Origin: Caldilineaceae bacterium | GTDB lineage: Bacteria; Chloroflexota; Anaerolineae; Caldilineales; Caldilineaceae | Direction of reading: 5' to 3' | DNA length: 38,140 nucleotides | Assembly: GCA_028819675.1 (NCBI GenBank) | Contig: JAPPKT010000338.1 | Coordinates: 1-38,140 of the forward strand | Shown here: positions 9,790-38,140 of the stretch, piece by piece | Position numbering within the stretch: the stretch's first letter is position 1 | Layout of the letters: each line of letters opens with the position of its first letter | Translations under genes and position numbers: made by a program | The notes under the pieces: generated by a model | What the model was told of the DNA's origin: nothing | Databases searched by the model: none | What the model saw: the letters and a program-made list of their open reading frames with translations, nothing else

Positions 9790-9823
9790 TCAGCCCATGG
9801 GGATCTAGCTTGGAGGGGAAAGC

Positions 9824-11914: not shown

Positions 11915-11927
11915 ATTGTGTTGCGGG

Positions 11928-13190: not shown

Positions 13191-13378
13191 TTGGACCTCC
13201 TTGGTCAAATCGCGTGCAGAACGAATGGTTTTTGATACTTTACAGGGGCTACCGGCCTCATTTGCCATCAGGAGGGTCTCGAAACGGGGAGACTCTCAGG
13301 GCCTTTCGGTCGCTACCGGGGGCCGGTTTCTTGGCTATTGCGGTCAGCGTTCCGGAGGGGAACGGGGCAATGCGCCCG

Positions 13379-13669: not shown

Positions 13670-14241
13670 ACAAGAGACGTGTCAATCGTTTTGCTTTAGA
13701 AGACAGGCTGGAAGCGCACATAAGGCTGGCGAGAGTTTTCCTGTTTGCGGCACCCATCTACCGGTTACCACGGAGTGGACACCCTCATGAAAAGCCGAGA
13801 CGCCCCCCGTTCAAACGAGTCGTCGACGCCAACTATGTGATTCAGTTTTTGGGGCCAAGCTCATTCCTTGTGGAATTCCCAGGAAAAATCGTATCAATTT
13901 TATGCCAGCATTCAAAATTGACGCCAAACCGCTCACAGTTCAGGGGGAATAGATAGCGGTCATCTTGGTCGACTCCGGATGGGGGGAGGCGGGGAGAGAT
14001 AGACAAGACCGGTTGGTCCGCGGAGGGTTGTCTGAACCGCAGTTTGTGGGATTTTAAAGATTAACAGTGATTTGAGGGTATCTTAGGCGACTGGGCAATG
14101 AGCCAGGGAGAACAAAGCGAGTGGTCCGAAGATGAGGGTCAGGGGAAAGAAGCCCCGTTTATTGCCCCTTGGGACCAGAAGCGAATCCAGCGAAGCAGGC
14201 TGGCAGGTAGGCATACGTGCAGGGAGAGACCGCCTGGTTGT
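13670..14241. other. Intergenic region, one partial repeat
   Basis: No supportable gene on either strand. It contains a partial copy of the GATTAACAGTGATTT repeat family at 14018-14077, preceded by a purine-rich stretch near 13981. The long + strand open frame that begins at 14098 is a shadow of the cytochrome operon. Confidence 0.6.
14018..14077 (+). repeat. Repeat family R, partial copy 1
   Basis: Contains CGCGGAGGGTTGTCTGAACC, then GTGGGATTTTAAAGATTAACAGTGATTTGAGGG. This is the core of the 113-116-bp unit seen at 16722-16870 and 19111-19385. All copies are in the same orientation. Confidence 0.75.
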
Positions 14242-15288: not shown

Positions 15289-15300
15289 TTTGGCGATGCG

Positions 15301-16611
15301 CTATTCCGAGGGAGCGGAGTCAAGGCCGGCTTGATCGAGCTTTGCCTGCACGTCGACGCGCAACGTCGCCATGTCGCGCAGGATCTCGTAGGCGCCGTGC
15401 CATTGCACGTAGTCGGGGCCTTGCATCCAGACGCCGAATTTGGCGGTACGTCCCCAGTGGTGCCACAGGTCGAAGTGGGTGAAGTCGATGGGTTCGTCAA
15501 AGGGCGCCCCGGTCAGAAGGTCGTGCTCTTTGAGGGGGGCGATCAGCGCATTGCTTTCGCTGACCCAGGCGTTGACCTGCTCGGTGGCGGCGTCGGCGGC
15601 AGTGTAGAACTCGGCGATAAAGTTCTGGTTGTGACATTCGCGGCAGACGCCCTGCATACGCACTTTGTTGTCCTGCCAGGCAGGACGGCGGCTGCTGATC
15701 GGGGCGAAGAGGAACCAGGTCAGACGGTCGCCGACGTCGTGGGTCGTGCCGGCGCTGCCGAACCCGCTTATGTGGCAGGTGGCGCAGGTCGGCGCGGGGA
15801 AGTCGGCGGCGGTCAGGGTGCCCGGTTCGGCGTCCCAGTGCCATCTGTCGCCCCCGGTGGCGTAGGCGATTCCGTGGGGCGATTCCTGGTAGATCTCCCA
15901 TTGGGGGTGATCGGGGCCGATGTGGCAGTAGTTGCAGGTTTCGGGTTTACGCGCCTGTTCAAGGCTGAATTCATGGCGCAGGTGGCAACTGGAGCACTGG
16001 CCGACGGAGCCGTCGGCGGCCGGCTTGCCGATGTCATGGCAGCTTTCACAGGCGAAGCGGGTGATGGCTTCGCCCTCAAGTTCGTGGAGGGCGTTGCGGG
16101 CGCGGGTGGCTTCCGGATCGTTTCCGCCTTCGGGGATCGAGGCGTAGATCTGTTTTTGGGCAGCTGTCAGGAGATCCTCGCCGGCATAGGCCACGTACGC
16201 AGGGAGGCCGTGGCGGCTCTGGTTGAACTGTGCGACCTCCTGGACATGGCAGTTCTGGCAGATGGCGGTGGTCGGCTGGTTCAGCACGTACAGACCTGCG
16301 TGCGGCACGGAGCCGGGATAGCCTTCATCGACGACGTGACAGTCCTGGCAGGATACGCCGGCCGCGGCCATGGTGCTGCGGCCGTACTGTTCGACGATGC
16401 CGGGCGTCTGCTGCAGGTGGCAGGTTACGCAGTCGTCGTCACTGTTTGCCAGGACGTTTACGGCGGCCGGCTCTTCGACGGCGGCGGGCGCGGCGAAGCG
16501 GCCGATCGTCATGGTGACGAGCGCGAGGGCGAGCACGACGACCACGGCGCTCAGGCCGATGATCAGAACGCGTGCTGCGTGCATGGATGGAGGTTCAGGC
16601 GATTCAGCCAA
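15301..16611 (-). CDS. Octaheme cytochrome c, hydroxylamine oxidoreductase-like
   Basis: A 436-residue protein with one N-terminal membrane anchor (RVLIIGLSAVVVVLALALVTM) and eight CxxCH heme sites: CVTCH 61, CQDCH 88, CQNCH 118, CESCH 188, CSSCH 206, CNYCH 226, CATCH 276 and CRECH 323. The spacing, HPQWEIYQESPHGIAY, and the C-terminal GPDYVQWHGAYEI resemble the HAO/multiheme nitrogen- and sulfur-redox family; YVQWHG-type motifs carry the tyrosine that crosslinks to heme in true HAO, though I cannot assert that here. It is shorter than classical HAO (about 570). Likely start is TTG 16611 with AGGGA 7 bases upstream; ATG 16584 lacks a ribosome site. The membrane protein follows 12 bases on. 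Confidence 0.85.
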   Translation of the reverse strand: MAESPEPPSMHAARVLIIGLSAVVVVLALALVTMTIGRFAAPAAVEEPAAVNVLANSDDDCVTCHLQQTPGIVEQYGRSTMAAAGVSCQDCHVVDEGYPGSVPHAGLYVLNQPTTAICQNCHVQEVAQFNQSRHGLPAYVAYAGEDLLTAAQKQIYASIPEGGNDPEATRARNALHELEGEAITRFACESCHDIGKPAADGSVGQCSSCHLRHEFSLEQARKPETCNYCHIGPDHPQWEIYQESPHGIAYATGGDRWHWDAEPGTLTAADFPAPTCATCHISGFGSAGTTHDVGDRLTWFLFAPISSRRPAWQDNKVRMQGVCRECHNQNFIAEFYTAADAATEQVNAWVSESNALIAPLKEHDLLTGAPFDEPIDFTHFDLWHHWGRTAKFGVWMQGPDYVQWHGAYEILRDMATLRVDVQAKLDQAGLDSAPSE

Positions 16612-16721
16612 TTGTGCGTCCCTAGTGCGGTCCCGGTATGCGGACAGACGTTGGGGCTATTCATGCTGCAATACAATTGCTCCAGGCGCAACACACGTTT
16701 TTCGAGAGCAGGAACGCCGGC

Positions 16722-16870
16722 GCTGTCTGAACCATGATTTATGGGATTTAGAAGATTAACAGTGATTTAGGGCGGCGGCAGGGCAGGCGCATTTCAGATG
16801 TGATGTCGGAGTGCGCCGAGGGAGGACGCGGAGGGTTGTCTGAACCGCAGTTTTGTGGGATTAAAAAAGA
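16722..16870 (+). repeat. Repeat family R, copies 2 and 3
   Basis: Copy 2 starts CTGTCTGAACCATGATTTATG, then GATTAACAGTGATTTAGGG and GCAGGGCAGGCGCATTTCAG, and runs to copy 3 (GCGGAGGGTTGTCTGAACCG...GTGGGATTAAAAAAGAT), which stops abruptly at 16870. The period between equivalent points is 116 bp. It lies between the divergently placed ends of the cytochrome and betaine-binding genes. Confidence 0.8.
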
Positions 16871-16871
16871 T

Positions 16872-16922
16872 GGCAATAACCGGATTGGGACTCGACAGGT
16901 AAGCCCAGATCGGGTTATTGCC
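16872..16922. repeat. Long imperfect inverted repeat
   Basis: GGCAATAACC (16872-16881) pairs with GGTTATTGCC (16913-16922). The pairing continues inward through GAT and TGGG against CCCA and ATC with one-base offsets. It sits between the repeat copy and the terminator of the betaine-binding gene. Confidence 0.6.
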
Positions 16923-16943
16923 TAGGAAAAAGCTCAACTTACG

Positions 16944-16974
16944 AAAAAAAGGCGGCCCATCTTTCGTGGCCGCC
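16944..16974 (-). terminator. Rho-independent terminator
   Basis: On the minus strand GGCGGCC and GGCCGCC form a 7-bp GC stem around a 10-base loop, followed by seven T. It lies 46 bases after the stop of the glycine-betaine-type binding protein gene and should end that transcript. Confidence 0.85.
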
Positions 16975-17019
16975 CTGCCTGGTACAATTTTACAGTCGTG
17001 CTGCAAAAAGGCCTTTCTC

Positions 17020-18069
17020 TTACTCTGTAGGCCACCCATCCGGGATCTCATTCGCCGCAAGCGCTTCCTCAATGGCCGCTGCGGCGTCCTCGGTCACCCA
17101 TGTGCTCCAAATGTCCGACCTGCTGTTCAGCCACCAGAGAGCAGCGTCATGGCTGGAGGCGTCACTATTCTCTTCTTGCCAACGAGCGACCTCTTTGTAA
17201 ACTTCTATATTGAAGTCCCACGCCTCCAGCATCTTGATAACGTCGGGCGCCGCATCCACAAGGCCCGGATGGACGGCAATCAGAATATCCGCGTCTTCAT
17301 ATGCGCAAGCCTTGTTAGACTCCCAGCATTCGTCGCTATAGGCCGGCTCTTCTAAGCGGACCAGGTCCAGAATGAGAGCGGGATCATTCGTGCCCCATTG
17401 GTAGCCAATCCACGGCTCACCTTTCTCATAGGCGCCGTAAAGGTCGGCGTTCAGTGCCGCCCCGTCGCCCGGGTTCACGACATGTACATGGTCCTCCAGC
17501 TCATAGCCGATGACCTGTGCAGCATTTACCTCTTCGCACGCCCACCCTATGACGCAGGAAACCAGTCGCGCTTTGCCCCCGGTCTCGGCCGAAGCAAACA
17601 GCTCCTTGAACTGATCGTCCTTCAGGTCCTCCACACTGTCCAGCTCCGGATACTGCTCCTGTAGATACTTGGGAATGACAAATGCCGACTGCCAGTCCTT
17701 GCCCAGGCTCGCGCCAATCTCAACGACTTCCCCTTTGCCTAGAGCTTCATACCAGGCTTCATCCTGGTTCGGCAGCCAGATTTCCAGTGTCACGTGTGTG
17801 TCACCTTTACGCAGTCCCTGGAACAGGGGCAATGTGGCGCCCAAGACGACATCCGTGGAATAGCCGTAGCCCTTCTCTACAATGTACTGAGCAATTCGGT
17901 TCTGGAGCTCTGCACTGGGCCAGTTCAAGTCGCTGAATATAATCGTGTTAATCGTAGTAGCCGGCGCCGCCGCCTCTTCGCTTGGCGCGCTCTGCTGAGC
18001 CGGTGCCGCACAGGCCGCAGTGAGGGCGATGATGAGCAAGAGTATGAGAATACGATATTGTGCACGCAT
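17020..18069 (-). CDS. Glycine betaine/proline-type ABC solute-binding lipoprotein
   Basis: A 349-residue OpuAC/ProX-family binding protein. Signal peptide LILLLIIALTAAC gives a lipidated Cys. The mature part has INTIIFSDLNWPSAELQNRIAQYIVEKGYGYSTDVV, the family start, then ETGGKARLVSCVIGWACEEV, GEPWIGYQWGTNDPAL and a C-terminal VTEDAAAAIEEALAANEIPDGW. Tyr/Trp residues such as GYQWG are of the kind that form the quaternary-ammonium cage. ATG 18069 has AGGAG 9 bases upstream; the longer frame from 18123 lacks support. A strong terminator follows. No permease or ATPase is adjacent. A broken paralogue lies immediately upstream (18676-19109). Confidence 0.92.
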   Translation of the reverse strand: MRAQYRILILLLIIALTAACAAPAQQSAPSEEAAAPATTINTIIFSDLNWPSAELQNRIAQYIVEKGYGYSTDVVLGATLPLFQGLRKGDTHVTLEIWLPNQDEAWYEALGKGEVVEIGASLGKDWQSAFVIPKYLQEQYPELDSVEDLKDDQFKELFASAETGGKARLVSCVIGWACEEVNAAQVIGYELEDHVHVVNPGDGAALNADLYGAYEKGEPWIGYQWGTNDPALILDLVRLEEPAYSDECWESNKACAYEDADILIAVHPGLVDAAPDVIKMLEAWDFNIEVYKEVARWQEENSDASSHDAALWWLNSRSDIWSTWVTEDAAAAIEEALAANEIPDGWPTE

Positions 18070-23332: not shown

Positions 23333-23540
23333 GCCCAGTCCAATTTTTGCCCTTTCGTTGTTGCGCCCCACTATACCATATGCTTACGGTTGATGTCCCA
23401 TGGCTGGGATAGGGCAGCAGGGCAATTACATCCTCTTGGAAAGAGAATGGCAGGGATATTCCCTTCGATATTGGAGACGAACAGGTCGTGCCATGGTCAA
23501 GTGCAAAAGGGCAGTTCATTCAGCAAGCTGGAAACATGTC

Positions 23541-26500
23541 ATGAAGCCTTCTTTTCGTATGCTGGCTGCTGTGGCTGTTATATGTGTCTTGGCCGTTGTC
23601 TGGAGAACGCCTAGTGCGCTCGCGTCAACACCTGTTCCTACGCCTGGAGCCACGGACAGGGACGTGTTGGTGGCGCTCTACCATGCGACCGACGGCGACA
23701 ACTGGACGAACAACGATAGCTGGCTTTCGAACGCGCCGGTCGGCACCTGGTATGGCGTCACTGCGAATGAAAGCGGCAGGGTTATTGGACTCGGCCTCGC
23801 GTACAACAATCTGAGCGGGACAGTTCCACCGGAATTGGGCAAACTTACCGCACTGACGCACCTTCACCTCCGCTGGAATCAGTTGAGCGGGACGATTCCA
23901 CCGGAACTAGGCATCCTCACCGCACTGACGTACCTTGACCTCGGTTGGAATCAGTTGAGCGGGACAGTTCCACCGGAACTGGGCAACCTCGCTAATTTAG
24001 ATGCATTGTACCTCGCCGGCAACAGGCTGAGAGGATGCCTGCCTGCTGTATGGAAATTTGTCGTGGAAAACGACCTCGAACGGCTTGATCTGCCATACTG
24101 CGCCGCGGTCCCGTTGAAAGTTTCCGCTGCCGCCGTCAGGGACAGAGACGCCTTGGTCGCGCTTTATTGGGCTGCGGATGGCGAAAAATGGACCAATAAC
24201 GACAACTGGCTTTCCGACGCACCACTCGGCACCTGGTATGGTGTCACTGCGGATGAGAGCGGTCGCGTCATTGATCTCGACCTCAGGCACAACGATCTGA
24301 GGGGGACGATCCCACCGAAACTGGGCAACCTCACAGCACTGGCGAGCCTCAGCCTCAGCGGCAACGATCTGAGCGGGACAGTTCCCCCGGAACTAGGCAA
24401 TCTTACCGCACTGGCGGCCCTCAACCTCAGCGGCAACGACCTGAGCGGGACGATTCCACCGGAACTAGGTAATCTTACCGCACTAACGGAACTCAACCTC
24501 CGCTGGAACCAATTGAGCGGAACGCTCCCACCGGAACTGGGTAACCTCGCTAATCTGGATGCATTGTACATCGCCGGCAACGGGCTGAGAGGATGCCTGC
24601 CTGCTGTATGGAAATATGTCGTGGAAAACGACCTCTACTGGCTTGATCTGCCATTCTGCGCCGCGGCCTCATCAATACTTTCCGCTGCGGCCGTCAGAGA
24701 CAGAGACGTCTTGGTTGCGCTTTATTGGGCTGCGGGTGGCAATAGGTGGACCGCCAATGCCAACTGGCTTTCCACCGCGCCGATCGGCACCTGGTATGGT
24801 GTCACTACGGATGAGAGCGGCAGGGTCATTGAACTCGACCTTTGGTTCAACAATTTGGGGGGGACGATTCCACCAGAACTGGGTAACCTCACAGCACTGA
24901 CGGAACTCAGACTCAACGGCAACAATTTGAGGGGGACGATTCCACCAGAACTTGGCAACCTTACCGCACTGACGGTCCTCAACCTCAGCAAAAATCAACT
25001 GAGCGGGACAGTTCCACCGGAACTGGGGAACCTTACCGCATTGACGGCCCTCAGACTCAGCAGCAACGATCTGAGCGGGACAGTTCCATCGGAACTGAGC
25101 AACCTCACCGCACTGACGAACCTTGACCTCGGTTGGAATCAGTTGAGTGGGACGATTTCACCGGCACTGGGCAACCTCGCTAGTTTAGATGCATTGTACC
25201 TCGCCGGCAACAGGCTGAAAGGATGCCTGCCTGCTGTATGGAAATATGCCGACTACAACGATCTCGACCAACTTGGTCTGCCATATTGCGCTGAGGCCAC
25301 GTCGGCTCACTCCGCTGCCTCGGACAGAGATGTCTTGGTCGCGCTTTACTGGGCTACGGATGGCGACAACTGGAGGGACAGCGACAACTGGCTTTCCGAC
25401 GCGCCGCTCGGCACCTGGTATGGTGTCACCACGGATGAGAGCGGCAGGATTATTGAACTCGTCCTCTGGTTCAACGATCTGAGTGGGCCAATTCCACCAG
25501 CACTGGGCAACCTCACCGCACTGACGAGCCTCAGACTCAACGGCAACAATCTGAGCGGGCCGATTCCACCGGAACTGGGCAACCTTACCGCACTGACGGC
25601 CCTCAACCTCAGCGGCAACAATCTGAGCGGAACAGTTCCACCGGAACTGGGCAATCTCGGTAAACTGGATGCATTGTACCTCGCCGGCAACAGGTTGACA
25701 GGATGCCAGCTCGCTGTATGGAAATATGCCGACTACAACGATCTCGACCAGCTTGGTCTGCCATACTGCGCCGCGGCCATGCCGACTCACTCCACTGCCT
25801 CGGACAGAGATGTCTTGATCTCGCTTTATTGGACTACGGATGGCAATAAATGGACCAATAACGACAACTGGCTTTCCGACGCGCCGCTCGGCACCTGGCA
25901 TGGTGTCACTACGGATGAGAGCGGTCGCGTCATTGAACTCGACCTCTGGTACAACAATCTGAGCGGGACAGTTCCACCGGAGCTGGGCAACCTCACCGCA
26001 CTAACGGACCTCGGTCTCGGAGGGAACCAGCTGAGCGGGACAGTTCCTGCCGAGTTGAGTACCCTTACCGCACTGACGAGCCTCAGCCTCAGCAGCAACG
26101 CTTTGAGCGGGACAGTTCCACCAGAACTGGGTAACCTTGCCGCACTGACGAACCTTTACCTCGGCTGGAATCAATTGAGCGGGACAATTCCACCGGAACT
26201 AGCCAACCTCACCGCACTGACGGACCTCGGTCTCAGCGACAACAATCTGAGCGGGACAGTTCCACCAGAACTAGGCAACCTCACCGCACTGACGAACCTT
26301 TACCTCGGCTGGAATCAGTTGAGCGGGACGATTCCACCGGAACTAGCCAACCTCACCAATTTGGATAAATTATACATCTCCGGCAACCAACTGAGCGGAT
26401 GTCTGCCTGCTGTATGGAAATATGTCGTGGAAAACGACCTCCACCGGCTTGATCTGCCATACTGCGCCGCGGCCACGCCGGCTCACTCCGCTGCCACGGA

Positions 26501-29500
26501 CAGAGATGTCTTGGTCGCGCTTTATTGGGCTACGGATGGCGACAACTGGAGGGACAGCGACAACTGGCTGACCGAGGCGCCAATGGGTATGTGGCACGGC
26601 GTCACCACGGATGAAAGCGGGCGGGTCATTGAGCTTGACCTCTGGGCCAACAACCTGAGCGGCACGATTCCCCCCGAACTTGGCAACCTCACCAACTTGG
26701 GAAAGTTGATTCTCCCAAGCAACGAACTGAGCGGCTCAATTCCGCCTGAGTTAAGCAATCTCACCAACCTTGAATCGTTGCAACTCTGGAATAACCAGTT
26801 AAGCGGTCCAATACCTTCAGCATTGGGCAACCTCTCTAGCCTTACGTCGTTGTCCCTCGGGAGCAATCAGTTGGAAGGGATGATTCCGTCTGAGTTGAGC
26901 AGACTCAACAATCTGTCGGATCTGGATCTCGGGGGCAACCGGTTGAGCGGCCCAATACCCCCAGCGTTGGGTAATCTCACGAACCTTGAATCGTTATCTC
27001 TCGGGAGCAATCAGTTGGAAGGAACGATTCCATCTGAGTTGAGCAGACTCAACAGTCTGTCAAGCCTGGATCTCGGAGGCAACCGGTTGAGCGGGACGAT
27101 TCCGCCCGAACTGGGCAACCTTACCAATTTGTCAAGTCTGAGTCTCGGCGACAATCGGTTAATTGGGGCGATCCCATTCGAGTTGAGCAACCTCACGAAC
27201 CTGGAGTCGTTGTCGCTCGGGGGCAATCAGTTGGGCGGCACGATTCCGTCGGAGTTAAGCAGGCTCAGCAACTTAAAATCGCTGTCGCTTTCAGGAAATA
27301 GATTAAAAGGCTCAATTCCGTCAGAACTGGCAAAACTAACCAGCTTGAGCCGTCTTGCTCTTTCAGGGAATCTGTTGAACGGCTCAATTCCATTAGAACT
27401 GGGCAACCTCACCAGCCTCTGGGCGCTAGATCTCTCAGCGAACCGGTTAAGCGGCTCAATTCCGTCGGAACTATCAAGACTAACCAGCTTGAGATCGCTT
27501 ATTCTTTCAGAGAATCTGTTGAACGGCTCGATTCCGCCGGCACTGGGCAACCTCGCTAATTTGACGAGGCTGGACCTTGAAGACAACCATCTGATCGGGA
27601 CAGTGCCAACGCAGCTGGGCAACCTCACCAACTTGGAGGTGTGGTATCTAGCCGGCAACAGGCTGGAGGGTTGCGTGCCCGAGGGTTGGCAAGATGTCAG
27701 GGCGAATGACTTCAACGATCTCGGAGTAAGCTTCTGCAATGCGCCCCCGCCGCACACCGTTGCTAGCGACAGAGAGGCTCTTATCGCGCTCTACCGGTCT
27801 GCGAACGGCGACTACTGGTTCAATAACAGCAATTGGCTTTCCGACGCTCCCCTGAACACCTGGTACGGTGTCGCCACGAATGAAAACGGTCGGGTCATTG
27901 GCCTCAATCTCAGCGAAAATGGGTTGAGGGGTACGATTCCGACCGAACTGGGCAACCTCACCAACCTGGCAGGGTTGTACCTCGACTCGAATCAGTTATG
28001 CGGAACGGTCCCACCAGCGTTGGGCAAACTCTCGAATTTGACAGAGTTAATCCTCTTTTCAAATCAGTTGCAAGGAACAGTTCCGCCAGAGATGGGGAAT
28101 CTCACCAACTTAGAGATACTGTACCTCGACTCGAATCAGTTATCCGGTGCGATTCCTCCGGAGTTGAACAACCTCACCAGCTTGTCTGAGTGGGGCATCT
28201 CGGGGAATCAGCTAAGCGGATGCGTGCCCGCAGCATGGCGGAGTGAATGGGGATGGGGGAGTGATTTGGAGAAACTTGGTCTGTCGTACTGCGACGCGCC
28301 CTCATCGCCACATCTCGTTACCGACGACAGAGACGTCTTAATCGCGTTCTACCGGTCTGCGAACGGCGACAACTGGATCAATAACAGCAACTGGCTTTCC
28401 GACGCTCCCTTAAACACCTGGTACGGTATCACCACAGACGATAGCGGTCACGTAACTGAACTGGAACTTGGGCTCAATGGGTTGAGCGGAGCGATTCCGT
28501 CCGAACTCGGTACACTCGGCCATTTGGAAAGGTTGAGTCTGCACGGCAACGCGTTGCGTGGTGAGATCCCTTGGGAACTAAGCGCCCTTGTCAACCTGAC
28601 AAGCCTGAATCTCTCGGAAAACCAGTTAGACGGGACGATTCCGCGGGCGTTGGGCAACCTCACCAACTTGGAAGTGGGGTACCTTTCCGGAAACAGGCTG
28701 GATGGATGCCTGCCCGCGGTTTGGCTAGGTGTCGGGACAAATGACTTCGACGAACTCGGATTGGTCTTCTGTACCGCGCCTTTGCCGTCTCTTGCCACTG
28801 TCACTGACGAGGACGCACTCATTGCATTTTACCGAGCTACGGACGGCGACTACTGGACTGACAACAGCAATTGGCTTTCCGACGCCCCCTTGAACACTTG
28901 GTACGGTGTCACCACGGACGAAGACGGTCGGGTTATTCTCCTCGATCTCAGAGAAAATGGGTTGTGGGGTTCGCTTCCGTCCGAACTGGGCAACCTCACC
29001 AATCTTCAAGGACTCAATCTCTCCGATAATCAGTTGAATGGAACGATTCCGTCAGAATTAGGTTACCTCGCTAATCTAACATGGTTGGGCCTTGACTCGA
29101 ATCAGTTATGCGGCACGATCCCGTCAGAATTGGGTAACCTCACCAGTTTGACAGAGTTATACCTCGGTTCAAATCAGTTGCAAGGAACAGTTCCGACAGA
29201 GATGGGGAATCTCACCAACTTGGAGGTACTGTATCTCGACTCGAATCAGTTATCCGGCACGATTCCTACGGAGCTGAACAACCTCACCAACTTGTATGAG
29301 TGGAGCCTCTTGGGGAATCAGATGAGCGGGTGCGTGCCCGAAGCCTGGAGGGATGAAGGGTGGAGTGACTGGGAGAATGACTGGGAGATACTTGGTCTCC
29401 CATATTGCGCCGCGCCCTCGCCGCCACTTACCGTCGCCGCCCTATCCGCGTTCTACTGGTCTGCGAACGGCGACAGCTGGAGGGACAAAGACAACTGGCT

Positions 29501-30032
29501 TTCCGACGCACCCTTGAACACCTGGTACGGTGTCATCACGGACGAAAGTGGCCGGGTCACTGGACTGGAACTCCCTTATAACGGATTAAGCGGTACGATT
29601 GCATCCGAACTGGGTACGCTCGGCCATTTGGAAAGGCTGCTTTTGCACGGCAATGCGTTGCGCGGCGGGATCCCGCCGGAACTGGGCAATCTCTCCAGCC
29701 TGACAAGACTTTCTCTCTGGGATAATCAGCTGGATGGAACTATCCCTTCCGAGTTGGGCAACCTCGCCAACCTGGAATGGCTATACCTCGACTCGAATCA
29801 GTTGCGCGGCACAGTTCCTCCAGAGTTGGGCAATCTTACCAACTTGGCGGTGTTGTGGCTTGACTCAAATCAGCTGCACGGGACAGTTCCTCTGGAGTTG
29901 GGCAACCTCACCAACCTGCTTGGGTTGCGTCTATCGGGGAATCAGCTAAGCGGATGCGTGCCTGCGGCATGGCGGAATGTGGTGGAAAGTGATTTGGCGG
30001 AGATTGGTCTGCCATACTGCGCCGCGCCATAA
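23541..30032 (+). CDS. Giant secreted leucine-rich-repeat protein, ten modules
   Basis: A 2163-residue protein with signal peptide (MLAAVAVICVLAVVW...ALAS) and no visible C-terminal anchor. It consists of ten modules. Each begins with an LRR N-cap (DRDVLVALYWATDGDNWTNN, NWLSDAPLGTWYGVT, ESGRVIELDL), continues with 24-residue plant-type LRRs (LSGTIPPELGNLTALTxLxL), and ends in a C-cap with GCLPAVWKY...LPYC. By eye there are about 62 LRRs: 4, 5, 6, 4, 7, 15, 5, 4, 6, 6. Module starts are near 23654, 24141, 24699, 25323, 25803, 26499, 27768, 28325, 28805 and 29440. It probably binds proteins or glycans outside the cell. The start could also be ATG 23493; none has a strong ribosome site. Confidence 0.93.
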   Translation: MKPSFRMLAAVAVICVLAVVWRTPSALASTPVPTPGATDRDVLVALYHATDGDNWTNNDSWLSNAPVGTWYGVTANESGRVIGLGLAYNNLSGTVPPELGKLTALTHLHLRWNQLSGTIPPELGILTALTYLDLGWNQLSGTVPPELGNLANLDALYLAGNRLRGCLPAVWKFVVENDLERLDLPYCAAVPLKVSAAAVRDRDALVALYWAADGEKWTNNDNWLSDAPLGTWYGVTADESGRVIDLDLRHNDLRGTIPPKLGNLTALASLSLSGNDLSGTVPPELGNLTALAALNLSGNDLSGTIPPELGNLTALTELNLRWNQLSGTLPPELGNLANLDALYIAGNGLRGCLPAVWKYVVENDLYWLDLPFCAAASSILSAAAVRDRDVLVALYWAAGGNRWTANANWLSTAPIGTWYGVTTDESGRVIELDLWFNNLGGTIPPELGNLTALTELRLNGNNLRGTIPPELGNLTALTVLNLSKNQLSGTVPPELGNLTALTALRLSSNDLSGTVPSELSNLTALTNLDLGWNQLSGTISPALGNLASLDALYLAGNRLKGCLPAVWKYADYNDLDQLGLPYCAEATSAHSAASDRDVLVALYWATDGDNWRDSDNWLSDAPLGTWYGVTTDESGRIIELVLWFNDLSGPIPPALGNLTALTSLRLNGNNLSGPIPPELGNLTALTALNLSGNNLSGTVPPELGNLGKLDALYLAGNRLTGCQLAVWKYADYNDLDQLGLPYCAAAMPTHSTASDRDVLISLYWTTDGNKWTNNDNWLSDAPLGTWHGVTTDESGRVIELDLWYNNLSGTVPPELGNLTALTDLGLGGNQLSGTVPAELSTLTALTSLSLSSNALSGTVPPELGNLAALTNLYLGWNQLSGTIPPELANLTALTDLGLSDNNLSGTVPPELGNLTALTNLYLGWNQLSGTIPPELANLTNLDKLYISGNQLSGCLPAVWKYVVENDLHRLDLPYCAAATPAHSAATDRDVLVALYWATDGDNWRDSDNWLTEAPMGMWHGVTTDESGRVIELDLWANNLSGTIPPELGNLTNLGKLILPSNELSGSIPPELSNLTNLESLQLWNNQLSGPIPSALGNLSSLTSLSLGSNQLEGMIPSELSRLNNLSDLDLGGNRLSGPIPPALGNLTNLESLSLGSNQLEGTIPSELSRLNSLSSLDLGGNRLSGTIPPELGNLTNLSSLSLGDNRLIGAIPFELSNLTNLESLSLGGNQLGGTIPSELSRLSNLKSLSLSGNRLKGSIPSELAKLTSLSRLALSGNLLNGSIPLELGNLTSLWALDLSANRLSGSIPSELSRLTSLRSLILSENLLNGSIPPALGNLANLTRLDLEDNHLIGTVPTQLGNLTNLEVWYLAGNRLEGCVPEGWQDVRANDFNDLGVSFCNAPPPHTVASDREALIALYRSANGDYWFNNSNWLSDAPLNTWYGVATNENGRVIGLNLSENGLRGTIPTELGNLTNLAGLYLDSNQLCGTVPPALGKLSNLTELILFSNQLQGTVPPEMGNLTNLEILYLDSNQLSGAIPPELNNLTSLSEWGISGNQLSGCVPAAWRSEWGWGSDLEKLGLSYCDAPSSPHLVTDDRDVLIAFYRSANGDNWINNSNWLSDAPLNTWYGITTDDSGHVTELELGLNGLSGAIPSELGTLGHLERLSLHGNALRGEIPWELSALVNLTSLNLSENQLDGTIPRALGNLTNLEVGYLSGNRLDGCLPAVWLGVGTNDFDELGLVFCTAPLPSLATVTDEDALIAFYRATDGDYWTDNSNWLSDAPLNTWYGVTTDEDGRVILLDLRENGLWGSLPSELGNLTNLQGLNLSDNQLNGTIPSELGYLANLTWLGLDSNQLCGTIPSELGNLTSLTELYLGSNQLQGTVPTEMGNLTNLEVLYLDSNQLSGTIPTELNNLTNLYEWSLLGNQMSGCVPEAWRDEGWSDWENDWEILGLPYCAAPSPPLTVAALSAFYWSANGDSWRDKDNWLSDAPLNTWYGVITDESGRVTGLELPYNGLSGTIASELGTLGHLERLLLHGNALRGGIPPELGNLSSLTRLSLWDNQLDGTIPSELGNLANLEWLYLDSNQLRGTVPPELGNLTNLAVLWLDSNQLHGTVPLELGNLTNLLGLRLSGNQLSGCVPAAWRNVVESDLAEIGLPYCAAP

Positions 30033-30061
30033 CCACTTAGCGGAGGCGGGGAACAGAGGAT

Positions 30062-30799
30062 ATGGGACCTCGACCAGGACAAGAGATGGACACGAAGGGC
30101 AGGCCCCCAGACGCGCCGGCGGCAGCGGCGATACGGTATGCAGGACTGGGATTCCTGGTGGGATTTCTGCTGTGCGCGATCGTGGCGGGGGCTTTGATGT
30201 GGCAGCTGCAGCGGCCTACGCCGCCCCCGATCGTGCTGCACTCGCTGCCGACCCCGGACCCGACGGAAACGCCGGCGCCGACTGCCACGCCCGGTCCGCT
30301 TGTCGTCTTCGTGAGCGGCGGCGTGCACAGCCCGGGCATGTACGAAGTGCCGGCGGGCGCGCGCGTGGGTGACGCGCTGGCCAAGGCGGGCGGTCTGGTG
30401 GCGGATACGGACCCGGCTCTCGTCAACCAGGCGGAGCTTCTTTTCGACGGCGCGCAGGTTCATGTGCCTCTGCCGCAATCCCCGGGGGCAGAGGCCGCGT
30501 CGACAAGCGGGGCGCTCTCTACAGAAGCGCCCTCTACCCAAGCGCCCTCTACCGGCCTGTCGGGGCAATCGTCCGCGACGGCCGCGGGGGCGTCCTCCAG
30601 CGCGTCAAGCGGCGGGTTGATCAATGTCAACACGGCCTCCCTTGAACTGCTCGATACGCTTCCCGGCATCGGCCCGGCCAAAGCGGCAGCGATCATCGCG
30701 GAGCGGCCCTTTAATTCGGTCGAGGAGTTGGAGCGGGTGCCCGGTATTGGTCCCAAGACCCTGGCGAACATCGCGCCGCTGGTTAAGGTTCGCGATTAG
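30062..30799 (+). CDS. comEA: Competence protein ComEA
   Basis: A 245-residue DNA-uptake receptor. One membrane segment (YAGLGFLVGFLLCAIVAGALMW) is followed by a Pro/Thr linker, then a SLBB domain (VVFVSGGVHSPGMYEVPAGARVGDALAKAGG). A Ser/Thr/Ala-rich spacer comes next, and the C-terminal helix-hairpin-helix DNA-binding domain (INVNTASLELLDTLPGIGPAKAAAIIAER and VPGIGPKTLANI). It binds incoming double-stranded DNA and passes it to ComEC, encoded about 300 bases downstream on the same strand. ATG 30062 lies 29 bases after the LRR gene, so it may be cotranscribed with it. Confidence 0.95.
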   Translation: MGPRPGQEMDTKGRPPDAPAAAAIRYAGLGFLVGFLLCAIVAGALMWQLQRPTPPPIVLHSLPTPDPTETPAPTATPGPLVVFVSGGVHSPGMYEVPAGARVGDALAKAGGLVADTDPALVNQAELLFDGAQVHVPLPQSPGAEAASTSGALSTEAPSTQAPSTGLSGQSSATAAGASSSASSGGLINVNTASLELLDTLPGIGPAKAAAIIAERPFNSVEELERVPGIGPKTLANIAPLVKVRD

Positions 30800-30878
30800 G
30801 GTTCGTTGACATTTTGGGAAGGCCGCTCAAAATTCAGCAGAAGAGGAAAGCCAGTAGGCCTGACAAAGATTTTTCCGG

Positions 30879-30955
30879 CTTGAATGTTGCCCAAGACAAA
30901 ACCTATTGATCCGCGAAGTCACGCGAAGGGGCGCGAAGAACAGCTTTTTGTCCGT
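30879..30955 (+). repeat. Dispersed repeat copy B (CGCGAAG family)
   Basis: CTTGAATGTTGCCCAAGACAAAACC, then ATTGATCCGCGAAGTCACGC and GAACAGCTTTTTGTCCG. It matches copy A at 9370 closely from CTTGAATGT through the CGCGAAGTCACGCGAAGGGG core. It lies between comEA and comEC, in a 295-base gap with no gene. Confidence 0.75.
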
Positions 30956-31094
30956 CATCACCACGCTGGCGCTTTTTGGATCAGGACCAGGATAATCGAG
31001 ATTCCGGCCAGCCCGCTGTGCGCGTAAGCGTGAACCCTGCACCTTTTTCCTACCACCTCAATGCAATCGCGGCAATGGAACGGCGAGCAGCTGG

Positions 31095-33779
<2,685 letters not shown>

Positions 33780-33797
<18 letters not shown>

Positions 33798-33850
33798 TCC
33801 GCGAAGGGGCGCGAAGAGACACGAAGGAACAGCAAGAGCATCTTCTCTGT
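33780..33850 (+). repeat. Dispersed repeat copy C (CGCGAAG family)
   Basis: GAGACAAAACCGATTGATCC, then GCGAAGGGGCGCGAAGAGAC and ACGAAGGAACAGC. The ATTGATCCGCGAAG core matches copies A and B. It overlaps the comEC stop codon (GATTGA) and is followed by about 260 bases with no gene before the plasmid-like module. Confidence 0.7.
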
Positions 33851-34035
33851 CCTGTCAGGGTAGCTTTGTGCCCGTATTTTCATATTTGAACAGCTTTCGC
33901 CCAATGTCCACGAAACCTAACCTGGGAATGGTGCGTTGCCCAGCAGCACAATCTGTTCTTTGAACACAGGTTCAGAGGCCAGGCGTAGAGTCAATTCAGA
34001 AGCAATTACACATTATTTACACCTGCAAATCAGGA
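33851..34035. other. Gene-free junction between comEC and replication module
   Basis: No gene on either strand. It is AT-richer toward 34020. No tRNA gene or obvious attachment duplication was found by eye. The left edge of the putative integrated element should lie in or near this stretch. Confidence 0.4.
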
Positions 34036-34064
34036 TTGTACAGTTTATCGGTTCATGGTACTCT
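34036..34064 (+). promoter_or_regulatory. Probable promoter of the copG-like/rep operon
   Basis: TTGTAC (34036-34041) and TACTCT (34059-34064) are separated by exactly 17 bases, about 47 bases before the ribbon-helix-helix gene. A CCTG-caaat-CAGG dyad just upstream (34023-34035) could be an operator. Confidence 0.5.
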
Positions 34065-34110
34065 GAAGAGATACGGCAGGCTGTGCTGTTAGAAGAAGAG
34101 AGAGGGCGAT

Positions 34111-34311
34111 ATGCCGAGTCGAGACGAGAGGCGAGCGGCGCTGCGTAAACGTTCGTCAATTCAGGTGTACGTTACAGCGGAAGATAAGCGACGCATTGAG
34201 GATGCCGCGTTAGCACGAGGCCGCCGTGCCAGCGAATTTTTGCGGGAACTTGCCTTAGCCGAAGCGGAGCGCTTCGAGAAGCGGGTCCGCCGTGAGGGCG
34301 GGACAAGGTGA
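34111..34311 (+). CDS. CopG-like ribbon-helix-helix protein
   Basis: A 66-residue basic protein: strand SSIQVYVTAEDKRRIEDAALARG, then helix RRASEFLRELALAEAERF and a charged tail. This is the RHH fold of plasmid repressors and of MobC-like relaxosome proteins. ATG 34111 has GAGGG 4 bases upstream. Its place at the head of a replication operon, followed by a predicted antisense RNA, argues for a copy-number repressor. A mobilisation accessory role is the alternative, but no relaxase is in the window. Confidence 0.65.
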   Translation: MPSRDERRAALRKRSSIQVYVTAEDKRRIEDAALARGRRASEFLRELALAEAERFEKRVRREGGTR

Positions 34312-34320
34312 GCCGGGAAG

Positions 34321-34383
34321 AAAAAGCCCCGAACCGCGGGCCGGCGGTAACGGGGCAACGTCTCTCAGGGGTGCTGGAGACCT
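34321..34383 (-). ncRNA. Predicted antisense (ct) RNA controlling rep
   Basis: On the minus strand, an extended -10 promoter (TGGTATACT, 34391-34399) sits 7 bases before a likely start near 34383. The transcript would end at a strong terminator: GCCCCG-TT-ACCGC-CGGCCC-GCGGT-T-CGGGGC followed by TTTTT (34356 to 34321). This gives an RNA of about 63 nt, complementary to the mRNA leader between the copG-like gene and repA. Size, position and structure match the countertranscripts of pMV158-type and other plasmids, which block initiator synthesis. The terminator cannot serve a minus-strand protein gene, since none is present. Confidence 0.6.
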
Positions 34384-34390
34384 GCAGATG

Positions 34391-34399
34391 AGTATACCA
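34391..34399 (-). promoter_or_regulatory. Extended -10 promoter of the antisense RNA
   Basis: TGG-TATACT on the minus strand fits the TGnTATAAT extended -10 consensus; the -35 region (TGGGGA at 17 bases) is poor, as is common for extended -10 promoters. Confidence 0.55.
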
Positions 34400-34555
34400 C
34401 ACAAAGACAGAGTTCCCCATACACAGATACCGATAGCAACTCCCGGTGAACCGGCGGCAACGGTCGAATCGGGGCGGACCAGGGTTACGACGTGCTGATC
34501 AAACAGCTGGCAGCCGGCCACGATCCGGCGTCGGCGCCACTACAGGACTCAGAGC

Positions 34556-35872
34556 ATGAATGAGCGACGAAACGGACAACCGCAGATCGCAGCTGCGACA
34601 GAACAGATCCAACCCGATCCCATTGCAATAGCATACGATAAACTTCAGGCCTCGGTGGCAGCCGGCAAAGACGATCCCGACGCCAGGGCCATCCTGCAGG
34701 CCGCGCTGCCTCACAGCAACGACGCGCAGAGTCTGACCGGGCCGGACGTAGCTGAGGCACTGCGTTCAGAGAATGCAATAGAGCAGGAGCGGGCGAGGAC
34801 GAGCATCCGGGCGTTGATCGACCAGCAGATTACAATTCCAGAGGGAGCGCTGATCAGCAACTGGAAACCGGAAGATCTACGGATGTCGCGCCCGTTCATG
34901 CTCGAGGGCTGGCTGCCATCAGGGCGGCCTGCAATCCTCTTCGCTGACGGCGGTGTAGGCAAGACCTGGCTGGCGCTGGCACTCTGCGCGGGAATTGCCC
35001 GCCCACCCGCTACGGGCTCTCAAGGCTGGCTCCACAGCAAAGAAAAGGAGAAGGTGGGCATCCCGGTCATCGGTGAAGAGTTTCGGTCTGGCGCTCCGGT
35101 TCTGTTTGCAACCTACGAAGATGAAATGCCGGACGTGTTTTACCGCCTCTCGGCGATCCGCTTCGGCGGGACGGGTGGACAGCGCGACGCCTGGCGGAAC
35201 TGGGAACTGCCGACCGAGATGCCGGATCTGCAGGTGCTGGATATGGTTGGCCTGGGGCTGGGCCCGTGTTGGGGTACACCGGAGGGTGAACTGACCAACC
35301 GGCGCAACGAACTCCTGCCGGCAGGAGAGGCGGTGCGGAAGGTCGCCGAAGACCACCACGCCCGGTTGCTGGTAATCGACAGCCTGGCCGCGTGCTATGC
35401 CAGCAACGAAAACGGGCGCGGCTCCGTCCACGAGTTCCTGCGTTCCTGGGACGAGTGGGGGCGCGTGCAGAACTGCACAACCCTCTTTATCGCCCACACC
35501 AACAAGGCCGGCGAATTTTCAGGATCGACTGCTTGGCACAACGCGGTGCGCACCCGCTGGCATCTTGGGCATGAGAAGATAGGGATAAAGCCGAAATCCA
35601 ATCAGCCCGATACAAGGGAAAGCGTCCCCGTTCTGACCTGCGAAAAGGTCAACTATGGGGAGAAGCCGGAACACGGCATCTATCTGACCCGCGGCAACGG
35701 CGGACGCTGGGAAGTGATTGCGAGACCGGCGGCAGAAAATGCAGTGCAGGCCAGCGACCCGGACCCAGGGGCGGACGCAATCAGGCTCAATGGGAAAGGC
35801 CGGTCGAAAGGGAGCAATGCGGCCACAGACGTTCTTCGCGACGAAACCAAGCTGAAGAAGCTAGGAGGATGA
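34556..35872 (+). CDS. RepA-like hexameric helicase / AAA ATPase
   Basis: A 438-residue AAA_25/RepA-type ATPase. Walker A is ADGGVGKTWLALALCAGIA, and the Walker B-like strand is HARLLVIDSLAACYA. VLFATYEDEMPDVFYRL and the sensor-like TLFIAHTNKAGEFSGST complete the RecA-fold core, as in the RSF1010 RepA helicase and related plasmid and phage proteins. It probably unwinds the origin for the initiator. The N-terminal 100 residues are unassigned. ATG 34556 has AGGA 8 bases upstream. The next gene starts 4 bases after the stop, with its ribosome site AGGAGG inside this gene's end, so translation is coupled. Confidence 0.82.
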   Translation: MNERRNGQPQIAAATEQIQPDPIAIAYDKLQASVAAGKDDPDARAILQAALPHSNDAQSLTGPDVAEALRSENAIEQERARTSIRALIDQQITIPEGALISNWKPEDLRMSRPFMLEGWLPSGRPAILFADGGVGKTWLALALCAGIARPPATGSQGWLHSKEKEKVGIPVIGEEFRSGAPVLFATYEDEMPDVFYRLSAIRFGGTGGQRDAWRNWELPTEMPDLQVLDMVGLGLGPCWGTPEGELTNRRNELLPAGEAVRKVAEDHHARLLVIDSLAACYASNENGRGSVHEFLRSWDEWGRVQNCTTLFIAHTNKAGEFSGSTAWHNAVRTRWHLGHEKIGIKPKSNQPDTRESVPVLTCEKVNYGEKPEHGIYLTRGNGGRWEVIARPAAENAVQASDPDPGADAIRLNGKGRSKGSNAATDVLRDETKLKKLGG

Positions 35873-35876
35873 GTGC

Positions 35877-37454
35877 ATGAGATTTCACGACTGGTGGAAT
35901 GCGTATGTAGACGCGGCCGGGGGCAACAAATGCCAGCCGTCAGACATCGCCTGCGCCATTGCGGAGGCAAAGCCGTGGCTTAATGCCGGTCTGCATGAAT
36001 GCTGTGAGCGAGCCCTCGCGTTGCTCATTGCATTGAAAAAATCCGATGGCCCAGACACACTGCTCGACCTGCTGTTCGAGAACGAGATAGAGGACTGGGA
36101 TAAGGTGTTGCCGGTTCTGGAGGGCTATCGCTTTCTACTGATGACCGACAAAGGATCGGATCCCAACAGGCAGAGTTTCGAAGAGATCGGACCACAATTT
36201 GAAGAGATGCTTCTGGCCGGTTTTGAGAGTTATCACAAGATCTGGCACGGGATAGGAAAAGAGGCCGACCTGAAACATCCAGTCGCTGCGCTTATCGATT
36301 GCTATTTGTCTCACGTAGAGCCGGACACCCACGACACCGGTATATTTCCGGCGCCGCTCGCTGCTCACCGCCATATTGAGACAAAAGCGGAAATGGGTTT
36401 TCTCTTTGACGTAACCGAGTATGACCGCTCGCCGCAAACCGGTGAAATGCCAACAGACGATACACACTCCCATCTTCCCAGCCTTACGCCGCGGCCGGCC
36501 GGCGTCGTTCCGGCTCTGCCAATCGTGCTTTGGGATCGGGCTGTGGAGGCCAAGCCCGGCCGCGGCGCTCCCTATGGCCTGCGATTGTGGGTCGAGGCGA
36601 TTCTCTCCGTGCCGGTGAGCGAACGTTCGGGCACACGCACGATTGCGATCCCTTTCGGACAGATGGTCAAAGCAATGTTCAATCGCTATCGCCGTGACCA
36701 GTTCCCGGCTCTCAGCGCGGCCTTTCGAACCGTCCACAATATGGGCATTGCATGGGGTGAACGGGGGGCCGAGAGCGTCTGGGTTCCGGTCGTCGTTCGA
36801 AATCGACCGGAACGCTGGGATGCCTATGAGAGCGATGTGGTCTTTGAGGTGAATTTGCCGCCCGGAAGTGGTTCCGGCCCACTGGTTTACAAACCTTATT
36901 TGAGAGAGATCGGACGGCACAGTGCGCCGGGTTACAGGGCGACGTTGGGTTTGTGCTATCTCTGGGATCGCTACGGCGCGAACAAAGGTCGCTTTATCCA
37001 GGCGACGATCCCCCGCCTGGCGCGCAACGATCAAGGCGAACTGATAGACTCCGCTGGCGAGGTTCTGTTGACAAAGCAAAACCAACCGATCAGTCAGTAC
37101 ATGATCGGAAAGGGGGACAGCCGGCGTCTGCGGCCTGACGTCGTGGCGCTGGATGAGCAGGACAATCGCGTGTACAGCATCTCGCATGCAGCCAGGGATC
37201 GCAACCCGGCGGTGGAGCGCTATCCGGTACTCAGCGACGCTGACCTGGTCACTCTCTGCTATCCAGCAATCGACGAAACATCCCGCGATGGCAAGCGATT
37301 ATCTCGAAGCGCACGAAGCAACCGGCAAAGCAGGGCACGAGAGGTGATCGAAGGGATGGCGAACAAGGGCTACTGCACCATCGAAGAGGTGGACAATGGA
37401 GTGCGCATTATGCCCCCATCCGGTTGGGGCGCGAGCTATCGCGGTTCGCTGTGA
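35877..37454 (+). CDS. Putative plasmid replication initiator, 525 aa
   Basis: I do not recognise a Pfam family by eye. The protein is soluble. Residues 1-120 are helical and acidic (HDWWNAYVDAAGG, LLDLLFENEIEDWDKVLPVLEGY). The middle (about 215-400) is basic and aromatic with YGLRLWVEAILSVPVSERSG, IAIPFGQMVKAMFNRYRRDQFPALSAAF and YRATLGLCYLWDRYG, like the winged-helix regions of theta-plasmid initiators. The end is SNRQSRAREVIEGMANKGYC-TIEEV, a second helix-turn-helix-like unit. The role is inferred from position: coupled to repA, with iterons starting 3 bases after the stop. ATG 35877 has AGGAGG 8 bases upstream. Confidence 0.65.
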   Translation: MRFHDWWNAYVDAAGGNKCQPSDIACAIAEAKPWLNAGLHECCERALALLIALKKSDGPDTLLDLLFENEIEDWDKVLPVLEGYRFLLMTDKGSDPNRQSFEEIGPQFEEMLLAGFESYHKIWHGIGKEADLKHPVAALIDCYLSHVEPDTHDTGIFPAPLAAHRHIETKAEMGFLFDVTEYDRSPQTGEMPTDDTHSHLPSLTPRPAGVVPALPIVLWDRAVEAKPGRGAPYGLRLWVEAILSVPVSERSGTRTIAIPFGQMVKAMFNRYRRDQFPALSAAFRTVHNMGIAWGERGAESVWVPVVVRNRPERWDAYESDVVFEVNLPPGSGSGPLVYKPYLREIGRHSAPGYRATLGLCYLWDRYGANKGRFIQATIPRLARNDQGELIDSAGEVLLTKQNQPISQYMIGKGDSRRLRPDVVALDEQDNRVYSISHAARDRNPAVERYPVLSDADLVTLCYPAIDETSRDGKRLSRSARSNRQSRAREVIEGMANKGYCTIEEVDNGVRIMPPSGWGASYRGSL

Positions 37455-37456
37455 CG

Positions 37457-37538
37457 CGTCAAACAGGTGAACATTCGCGTCAAACAGGTGCATTTAGACG
37501 TCAAATAGGTGAACATTCGCGTCAAACAGGTGAACATT
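37457..37538 (+). repeat. Four iterons, 21-bp period (replication origin)
   Basis: CGTCAAACAGGTGAACATT begins at 37457, 37478, 37499 and 37520, a constant 21 bp, so all sites face the same side of the helix. Copies 1 and 4 are identical over the core; copy 2 reads GTGCATTTA and copy 3 has CAAATAGG. A fifth copy is at 37790. Such arrays bind the initiator in iteron plasmids. Confidence 0.85.
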
Positions 37539-37568
37539 TAGCTACTTGTCTCTCTGGTAGGGAAAGGG

Positions 37569-37595
37569 ACCCCATTAACCCCATATACCCCATAG
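37569..37595 (+). repeat. ACCCCAT direct repeats, 9-bp period
   Basis: ACCCCATTA, ACCCCATAT and ACCCCATAG lie head to tail at 37569, 37578 and 37587. The last is part of the left arm of the first origin hairpin. They may be melting or initiator sites. Confidence 0.7.
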
Positions 37596-37617
37596 TTCCA
37601 TAAGGACTATGGGGTAT
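37585..37617. repeat. Origin hairpin 1, perfect 12-bp arms
   Basis: ATACCCCATAGT and ACTATGGGGTAT flank TCCATAAGG. It lies 47 bases after the iterons and directly touches hairpin 2. Confidence 0.85.
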
Positions 37618-37650
37618 GTTATGGGGGTTGCGCTGAAGCGCCCCCATAAC
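37618..37650. repeat. Origin hairpin 2
   Basis: GTTATGGGG pairs with CCCCATAAC and encloses GCGCT-GA-AGCGC, with a three-base bulge on the left. With hairpin 1 it makes two adjacent strong stem-loops, as expected for single-strand initiation (ssi) or leading/lagging start sites in RSF1010-like origins. Confidence 0.8.
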
Positions 37651-37652
37651 AT

Positions 37653-37787
37653 GTGACAGAAAGACGACGACCGCGACGGGTCGAGAGAACCGTCTATTGC
37701 GAACGTCTGCGGCTCGGCTTCAAGCATGAGAATATCTATGTCAACCAGTTCGACACAGTGCGTAAGTTATGCACCGGTTCGCTGTGA
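37653..37787 (+). CDS. Short chimeric ORF inside the origin, 44 aa
   Basis: A GTG start opens MTERRRPRRVERTVYCERLR, and then LGFKHENIYVNQFDTV continues to a stop in TGSL. The first 38 residues look like the start of a basic DNA-binding or mobilisation protein. The last bases (GGTTCGCTGTGACGCGTCAAA) repeat the end of the initiator gene and first iteron exactly. The gene's true 3' part thus seems to have been replaced by a copy of the initiator end. No good ribosome site. Probably a remnant. Confidence 0.3.
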   Translation: MTERRRPRRVERTVYCERLRLGFKHENIYVNQFDTVRKLCTGSL

Positions 37788-37860
37788 CGCGTCAAACAGG
37801 TGAACTTTGGGCTGCTTTTCTCTCTAGTAGGGAAGGGGATCCCATATAGCCCATACCGCA
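37776..37860 (+). repeat. Second, partial copy of the origin with iteron 5
   Basis: From GGTTCGCTGTGACGCGTCAA (compare 37443) through iteron 5 (37790-37808) and TCTCTAGTAGGGAAGGGGAT (compare 37552-37571), this segment repeats the border of the main origin but with one iteron instead of four. It is a direct duplication about 330 bp apart. Confidence 0.7.
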
Positions 37861-37976
37861 CTGGTGGTGTGAGCGGTCAGCGCAGCCGGAGCCCCAATTT
37901 AGCCTGATTTTCCAAAGACAAAGCCTGATCGCTCCATTTCTTCCTTCGCAACCCAATCCAACATGTCTTGACGCCG

Positions 37977-38015
37977 GCAAAAACGACAATTTGTCGTTTT
38001 TGCGGGTGTTTTTTT
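37977..38015 (+). terminator. Perfect 13-bp hairpin with T-tract
   Basis: GCAAAAACGACAA and TTGTCGTTTTTGC are separated by a single T. GGGTG and seven T follow. It could end transcription running rightward from the rep operon, although the single-base loop means the apex must open. It also resembles a protein-bound palindrome. Confidence 0.5.
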
Positions 38016-38073
38016 GCCAATGGATGAAGCGCCGGGCGGGTCTCCTGCACAGGCTGCTTCAGGGGTGGCTGCG

Positions 38074-38107
38074 GCCATGCGGCCAGCCGTGTAGCCGGCC
38101 GCATGGC
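38074..38107. repeat. 11-bp inverted repeat
   Basis: GCCATGCGGCC (38074-38084) and GGCCGCATGGC (38097-38107) are exact reverse complements around a 12-base loop. Confidence 0.75.
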
Positions 38108-38140
38108 GGTTGAGATAGGTTAGCGGATCGGGGGCGCGTA

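Follow-up and report, generated by a model that had tools for sequence, protein, structure and literature searches.

A probable, partly decayed plasmid-type replication module with IncQ-like parts and a predicted Pi/RepE-fold initiator in a Caldilineaceae contig

We examined a stretch of 38,140 nucleotides from a Caldilineaceae bacterium (contig JAPPKT010000338.1, positions 1 to 38,140; hereafter the window), which carries near its right end a small ribbon-helix-helix (RHH) gene, a RepA-type ATPase gene, a gene for a protein of 525 amino acids (aa), four iterons and two hairpins. Very probably, this segment is the replication unit of an integrative, plasmid-like element that is now integrated and partly decayed. 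Its gene order, the predicted fold of the initiator and the iterons all support the plasmid-type replication module that a sequence-only reading of the same DNA had proposed. The central features are:

34556 to 35872, plus strand: RepA-type (AAA_25) hexameric-helicase-like ATPase, 438 aa (AAA_25 at E 1e-20 and PDB profile)
35877 to 37454, plus strand: replication initiator, 525 aa, family without a Pfam entry, predicted Pi/RepE-like fold plus an extra N-terminal helical region (searches, model)
37456 to 37539, plus strand: four iterons with a 21-bp period (repeat search, shuffles)
37552 to 37559, no strand assigned: short box CTCTGGTA 3' of the iterons (recurs in the origins of relatives)
37585 to 37617, no strand assigned: origin hairpin 1 (folding)
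37616 to 37652, no strand assigned: origin hairpin 2 (folding)

The 525-aa open reading frame (ORF) begins 4 nt past the stop codon of the ATPase gene, in agreement with the proposed coupling of the two genes. Searches with its product gave no match in Pfam and NCBIfam up to E 1 and no identity in PHROGs, and the PDB returned only noise by sequence and by profile, so the suspicion that the protein lies outside recognised families was justified. Neither the window initiator nor its relatives (sets of 21 and 30) matched Rep_3 of Pfam, the RepC model was absent among the Pfam matches of these 21 and 30 relatives, and no window protein matched a rolling-circle (HUH) initiator family in Pfam, NCBIfam or PHROGs. 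The initiator thus matches no family in the libraries searched, yet its predicted shape is that of the classic plasmid initiators. The structure model fits Pi/RepE-type iteron initiators, with two winged-helix domains of this type and about 150 extra residues at the N-terminus, and neither profile search nor structure prediction pointed to a family outside replication.

The ATPase had been read as a RecA-fold protein and RepA helicase, which is borne out beyond the AAA_25 match. A profile of 14 relatives including the window protein found RSF1010 RepA (1g8y) in the PDB at E 2e-19, the next entry following at E 0.0028; the window protein alone reached E 0.012 with RSF1010 RepA. An ATPase model from three sequences was poor (predicted local distance difference test, pLDDT, 43.6) and was left unused.

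The iteron core CGTCAAAYAGGTG occurs without mismatch at 37457, 37478, 37499 and 37520, in the 21-bp steps originally noted, and again at 37790. Allowing up to two mismatches, the window holds nine copies against a shuffle mean of 1.2, and none of 100 shuffles reached nine. Related loci have iterons as well. Words repeated at 20–23 bp over at least two steps were found by program in 13 of 16 origins (290 bases past the initiator stop), with shuffles reaching at most one step (L041). The exceptions are L047, L037 and L053; inspection by eye showed many differently spaced copies in L037, another cluster farther along in L047 and one copy in L053. Twelve of the 16 origins contain the box CTCTGGTA/TACCAGAG, exact or changed at one base, in either orientation. 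The best DnaA boxes had 2–4 mismatches in 15 of the 16, as in shuffles, and one mismatch in L044, where 7 of 200 shuffles were as good; the consensus used is that of E. coli and may not be the host's.

Initiator identity and iteron similarity were correlated across 15 sets (r 0.84, or 0.69–0.80 without near-duplicates), and none of 20,000 permutations reached this in any version. The sets comprised the window and 14 loci (L039, L043, L050 and L053 excluded as duplicate or incomplete), with iteron words picked by eye. Most of the signal comes from L038/L048/L049/L051 and L037/L045/L046/L052, the window's own pairs being weak. The correlation shows apparent inheritance as a unit and is not proof of binding.

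The two big hairpins described after the iterons are present, each with a single-strand folding z of about -4.8 to -4.9. Among the origin regions compared (130 bases, hand-chosen starts), 12 of 16 form at least two stems of at least nine pairs from differing sequences, and 14 of 16 have a folding z of -2.5 or below; two such stems also arise in 4–16 of 60 shuffles per region (7–27%). Quite possibly, the hairpins serve as terminators of transcription or belong to a leader and are not priming sites. They lie 3' of the operon, and their summed covariation is nil (0.02), though at 10 of 23 pairs both sides have changed in at least one sequence. Against terminators, there is no T-run behind them, the terminator scan did not call them, and paired stems recur in most origins in spite of differing sequences, with the shuffle background given above.

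The part of the module ahead of the ATPase gene contains:

34016 to 34044, plus strand: promoter-like site 5' of the RHH gene (promoter scan; not above chance)
34111 to 34311, plus strand: RHH protein, 66 aa, putative operon repressor (ORF call, Pfam, relatives)
34326 to 34356, no strand assigned: GC-rich hairpin flanked on the left by an A-run, resembling a minus-strand terminator, perhaps of a leader or antisense RNA (terminator scan, folding)
34424 to 34459, plus strand: primase remnant, N-terminal piece (L040 primase residues 7–18, 8 of 12 residues identical)
34474 to 34563, plus strand: primase remnant from the C-terminus, stop codon included, which overlaps the start codon of the ATPase gene (L040 primase residues 343–371, 76% identity, E 6e-11)

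A full-length primase-like ORF lies between the RHH and ATPase genes in 11 of the 17 relatives fetched. Its product has weak similarity to Toprim_3 and DUF7146, and a profile search links it to DnaG (E 1.1e-5). To judge from the two remaining scraps, which are in different frames, the primase gene of the window is destroyed. The N-terminal piece is weak alone (E 0.5) and is backed by a longer remnant in genome G001 (pieces at E 1e-8 and 7e-8); L046 retains a C-terminus (E 9e-14). Therefore, the module may borrow a primase or be replicated passively with its carrier.

The RHH gene itself was read correctly: the ORF has NikA-like (E 1.9e-5) and RHH_1 (E 0.02) matches, both below gathering, and an RHH ORF precedes the module in 10 of the 17 fetched loci. 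A minus-strand promoter/terminator pair, and with it an antisense RNA between the RHH and ATPase genes, had also been proposed, and of this only the terminator half found some support. A terminator-like hairpin is located on the minus strand at 34342–34325. Ten of 12 loci inspected have the GC hairpin in this gap, L048 and L051 being the exceptions, and the shared consensus stem has only five pairs; the terminator-like A-run is weak or missing in the L042–L049 group. No minus-strand promoter was found in a scan of 33800–38140, the sole promoter-like site (1.7 expected) being on the plus strand; terminator-like sites numbered six against 4.0 in shuffles, so that neither site type exceeds chance in number. 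A search of the window against Rfam gave no match. Since a wrecked primase gene lies in this gap, it is not simply an antisense-RNA locus.

A pMV158-like rolling-circle replicon with CopG and antisense RNA would account for a small RHH gene in first place and a hairpin before the next gene. Against this, there is no rolling-circle initiator, the initiator model has a Pi/RepE fold, a RepA-type helicase is encoded and the iterons follow the initiator, which makes such a replicon extremely improbable. For the mixture originally noted here, IncQ-like logic combined with a Pi-fold initiator is a more fitting description than a hybrid of pMV158 and RSF1010.

Downstream of the origin lies a trace of an earlier one:

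37775 to 37855, plus strand: older-origin scar comprising the 3'-terminal bases of an initiator gene, a single iteron, the box and the start of a hairpin region (identity to the origin upstream)

This scar is 84–97% identical to 37442–37475 and 37518–37585, and 95% identical to the same scar on contig C90 of G001 (G001:C90), where an extra scar of another type precedes the shared one. The window and G001:C90 share 97% identity over 30031 to 34459, resuming at 34453–34529; then their ATPase-initiator-origin cassettes differ (ATPases 35% identical), and at 37775–38008, with the old one-iteron scar, they are alike again (95%). Incoming relatives appear to have exchanged the helicase-initiator-origin part by recombining in the 3' end of the primase gene, and scars of the former origins stayed behind downstream. 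The alternating pattern would have arisen because an incoming circular relative entered by a single crossover in the primase 3' end, after which the old genes were lost; this order of events is our reconstruction. We also considered the orphan iteron copies as attachment sites and rejected this. Decayed origins fit better, because the copies include part of the hairpin region as well as initiator-gene ends whose length varies, from 34 bp in the window to 91 bp in G001.

A terminator-like palindrome at 37971–38039 is a dispersed repeat that matches G001:C90 more than 10 times and G007:C89 and G006:C102 several times. Its portion 37971–38009 was considered as an integron attC site and left as a dispersed terminator-like repeat.

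The single-protein initiator search yielded 20 homologues from 7,999 candidates scored, 12 of them at 70–97% identity over 99–100% of the query; those of exactly 525 aa (P0001–P0008) are 77–97% identical. With a profile of a divergent set, 369 proteins were found at E <= 0.001, and the 120 matches listed contain no Pfam domain. The initiator occurs in 8 of 100 related genomes, all belonging to a single genus of which 17 genomes were included. Two profiles found it in 2 and 3, respectively, of 400 genomes of the phylum, and it was found in 4 of 298 class genomes, the phylum and class counts being lower bounds because 3–5 candidates per genome were scored. Named records with the initiator are two Caldilineaceae metagenome-assembled genomes (MAGs) and one SAR202 MAG. 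The gene order recurs elsewhere: among the 17 fetched stretches, 16 have the ATPase ORF, 16 the initiator ORF, 15 both and 10 the RHH ORF, and L050 has initiator fragments only. The SAR202 contig L155 encodes ParA, a tyrosine recombinase, a Toprim primase, an AAA_25 protein and the initiator, followed by iterons (at least 10, mostly 43–44 bp apart) and another tyrosine recombinase. Of 18 loci outside the window, 8 have ORFs for serine or tyrosine recombinases, or pieces of them, no farther than 10 kb from the module. We found no report of the module in the open-licence PMC literature.

Two observations concern the surroundings of the G001 module. Nearby restriction-, TIR- and DUF262-like genes (G001:C90 26995–37836, L115), recognised by eye in the starts of their sequences, have the look of a defence island. 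About 2 kb from the module, L116:14045–15298 encodes a Prim-Pol and PriCT_2 protein, possibly a second plasmid-type replication gene.

The left neighbour of the module in the window is:

31095 to 33797, plus strand: comEC, second divergent copy (DNA identity to other comEC copies)

The position directly after comEC had been noted, but that this comEC is a second, divergent copy had been missed, as had the primase remnants and the older origin scar. Its DNA is 96, 93, 90 and 84% identical to the second copies of G001, G002, G011 and G007, respectively, vs 71–82% to 17 vertical copies. All 17 genomes of the genus have the vertical copy and four have a second one besides. Plasmid-type genes (the module, or an 88-aa gene with a ParA-like gene) adjoin all five second copies, window included, and none of the 17 vertical ones in the stretches called, six of which span just 0.9–1.4 kb or so. 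The closest genomes among those compared form one genus and the named loci are Caldilineaceae, in line with an integrated element in a Chloroflexota-like genome.

Could the module be a relic domesticated for another task, for example in regulating the second comEA-comEC copy, or dead DNA? The primase loss, the origin scars and the association with second comEC copies just described would fit, while in each type the initiator is still paired with iterons that suit it and the long ORFs are intact; we regard this explanation as rather unlikely. Conversely, the module might still be active, excising or replicating autonomously with the host primase. R6K-type plasmids use the host primase, and some iteron plasmids are DnaA-assisted. 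The ATPase and initiator ORFs, the iterons and the hairpins are intact, and the identity of P0001–P0008 to the window initiator suggests conservation. However, the primase gene is destroyed, no recombinase is nearby, an older origin scar lies directly 3', and no DnaA box exceeds chance, unlike in the DnaA-assisted plasmids, so that present activity seems unlikely.

Several points weigh against the integrated, partly decayed element that we favour. The primase is broken, the initiator model has a pLDDT of 77 with a poor stretch at about 164–228, and Foldseek gave no match at E <= 0.001 in the PDB or BFVD. Initiator relatives are absent from 72,556 plasmid and 50,697 phage records, bar one chance-level match (E 0.7), so no free plasmid form is known; IMG/VR contains no relative, either. 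None of the three one-contig genomes of the genus has the initiator, six contigs checked for circularity had no end overlap, and the called genes near the module in the window include no recombinase or relaxase. The placement on a chromosome and not on a large plasmid is deduced from the genes in 1–18,000, whose counterparts are scattered across one-contig genomes.

Further left, a comEA-like gene shares 30062–33797 with the second comEC. Beside it, 23400–30032 is a 2,210-aa leucine-rich-repeat ORF with many internal repeats, of which G001:C90 has a shorter relative in the same place. Two highly similar small ORFs resembling membrane proteins (7949–8104 and 10862–11026) have two like ones in G001:C90. 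The intergenic segment 33762–33987, 5' of the RHH gene, consists of dispersed repeats, pieces of which match many sites in genomes of the genus.

From the order and families of the genes, the initiator model, the iterons, the hairpins and the primase loss, we infer how intact relatives would work. The RHH protein would repress the operon. The initiator would bind the iterons beside its own 3' end via its Pi/RepE-like winged-helix domains and open the DNA, which the RepA-type ATPase would unwind. A dedicated DnaG/Toprim-like primase would then start synthesis, for which the two hairpins may be the sites, much like ssiA/ssiB for RepB' in IncQ. More broadly, these loci may represent an unnamed large replicon family of uncultured Chloroflexota, an idea on which we are evenly divided. 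Such replicons would combine IncQ logic (RepA helicase, primase, initiator, iterons and hairpins, DnaA independence) with a Pi/RepE-fold initiator and a DnaG-type primase, integrate, move between Caldilineaceae and SAR202, and swap cassettes at fixed addresses such as the second comEA-comEC, with layered scars recording the invasions. The initiator family is sizeable and none of the plasmid and phage collections searched contains it, so these elements would escape plasmid detection that relies on known Rep genes. If the module replicates, this would show that the IncQ division of labour between helicase, primase and initiator has come about with an initiator and a primase that are unrelated to those of IncQ; the module would also provide a first replicon with which to attempt vector construction for uncultured Chloroflexota. 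Origin specificity could be studied on the naturally matched types of initiator and iteron.

Among known systems, IncQ plasmids (RSF1010, IncQ-3) resemble the module and its relatives in having their own primase, RepA hexameric helicase and iteron-binding initiator, according to the sources on repB-repA-repC and oriV (PMC7557826, PMC6925257, PMC4434180). They describe an oriV of iterons of about 20 bp and two palindromes, a layout that the window shares at the level of sequence. In contrast to IncQ, the window initiator has no RepC match in Pfam and models as Pi/RepE, no mobA fusion was seen and the module is integrated. The IncQ RepB' is an archaeo-eukaryotic primase, whereas that of the relatives is DnaG/Toprim-like and the window has primase remnants only. 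The 15-bp IncQ box CTGCGCCTAGTGGAG gave two matches with three mismatches, far from the module, and 39 of 100 shuffles did equally well. In its presumed way of working the module resembles IncQ, but with an initiator and a primase from other families and no IncQ box it is not a member. With R6K Pi, F RepE and Rep_3 plasmids it shares the fold of the initiator model and iterons beside the initiator gene. It differs from them in the lack of a Rep_3 sequence match, the N-terminal extra of about 150 residues, a helicase of its own, a primase of their own in the relatives, and DnaA boxes not above chance in 15 of 16 origins.

SGI1 is likewise an integrated element with a rep gene and a four-iteron origin directly downstream; its Rep, however, has a RepA_C domain, its oriV a putative DnaA box, and the passages on it describe no helicase or primase of its own (PMC7433901). 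IncU RA3 resembles the module in its repressor gene, initiator, possible antisense control and origin at the 3' end of the initiator gene, but RA3 RepA is a repressor, not a helicase, and the main text of the source does not mention a helicase (PMC9455977). With the pMV158 family, finally, the module has in common the small RHH repressor heading the operon, but it is built from theta- or displacement-type parts in place of a rolling-circle initiator.
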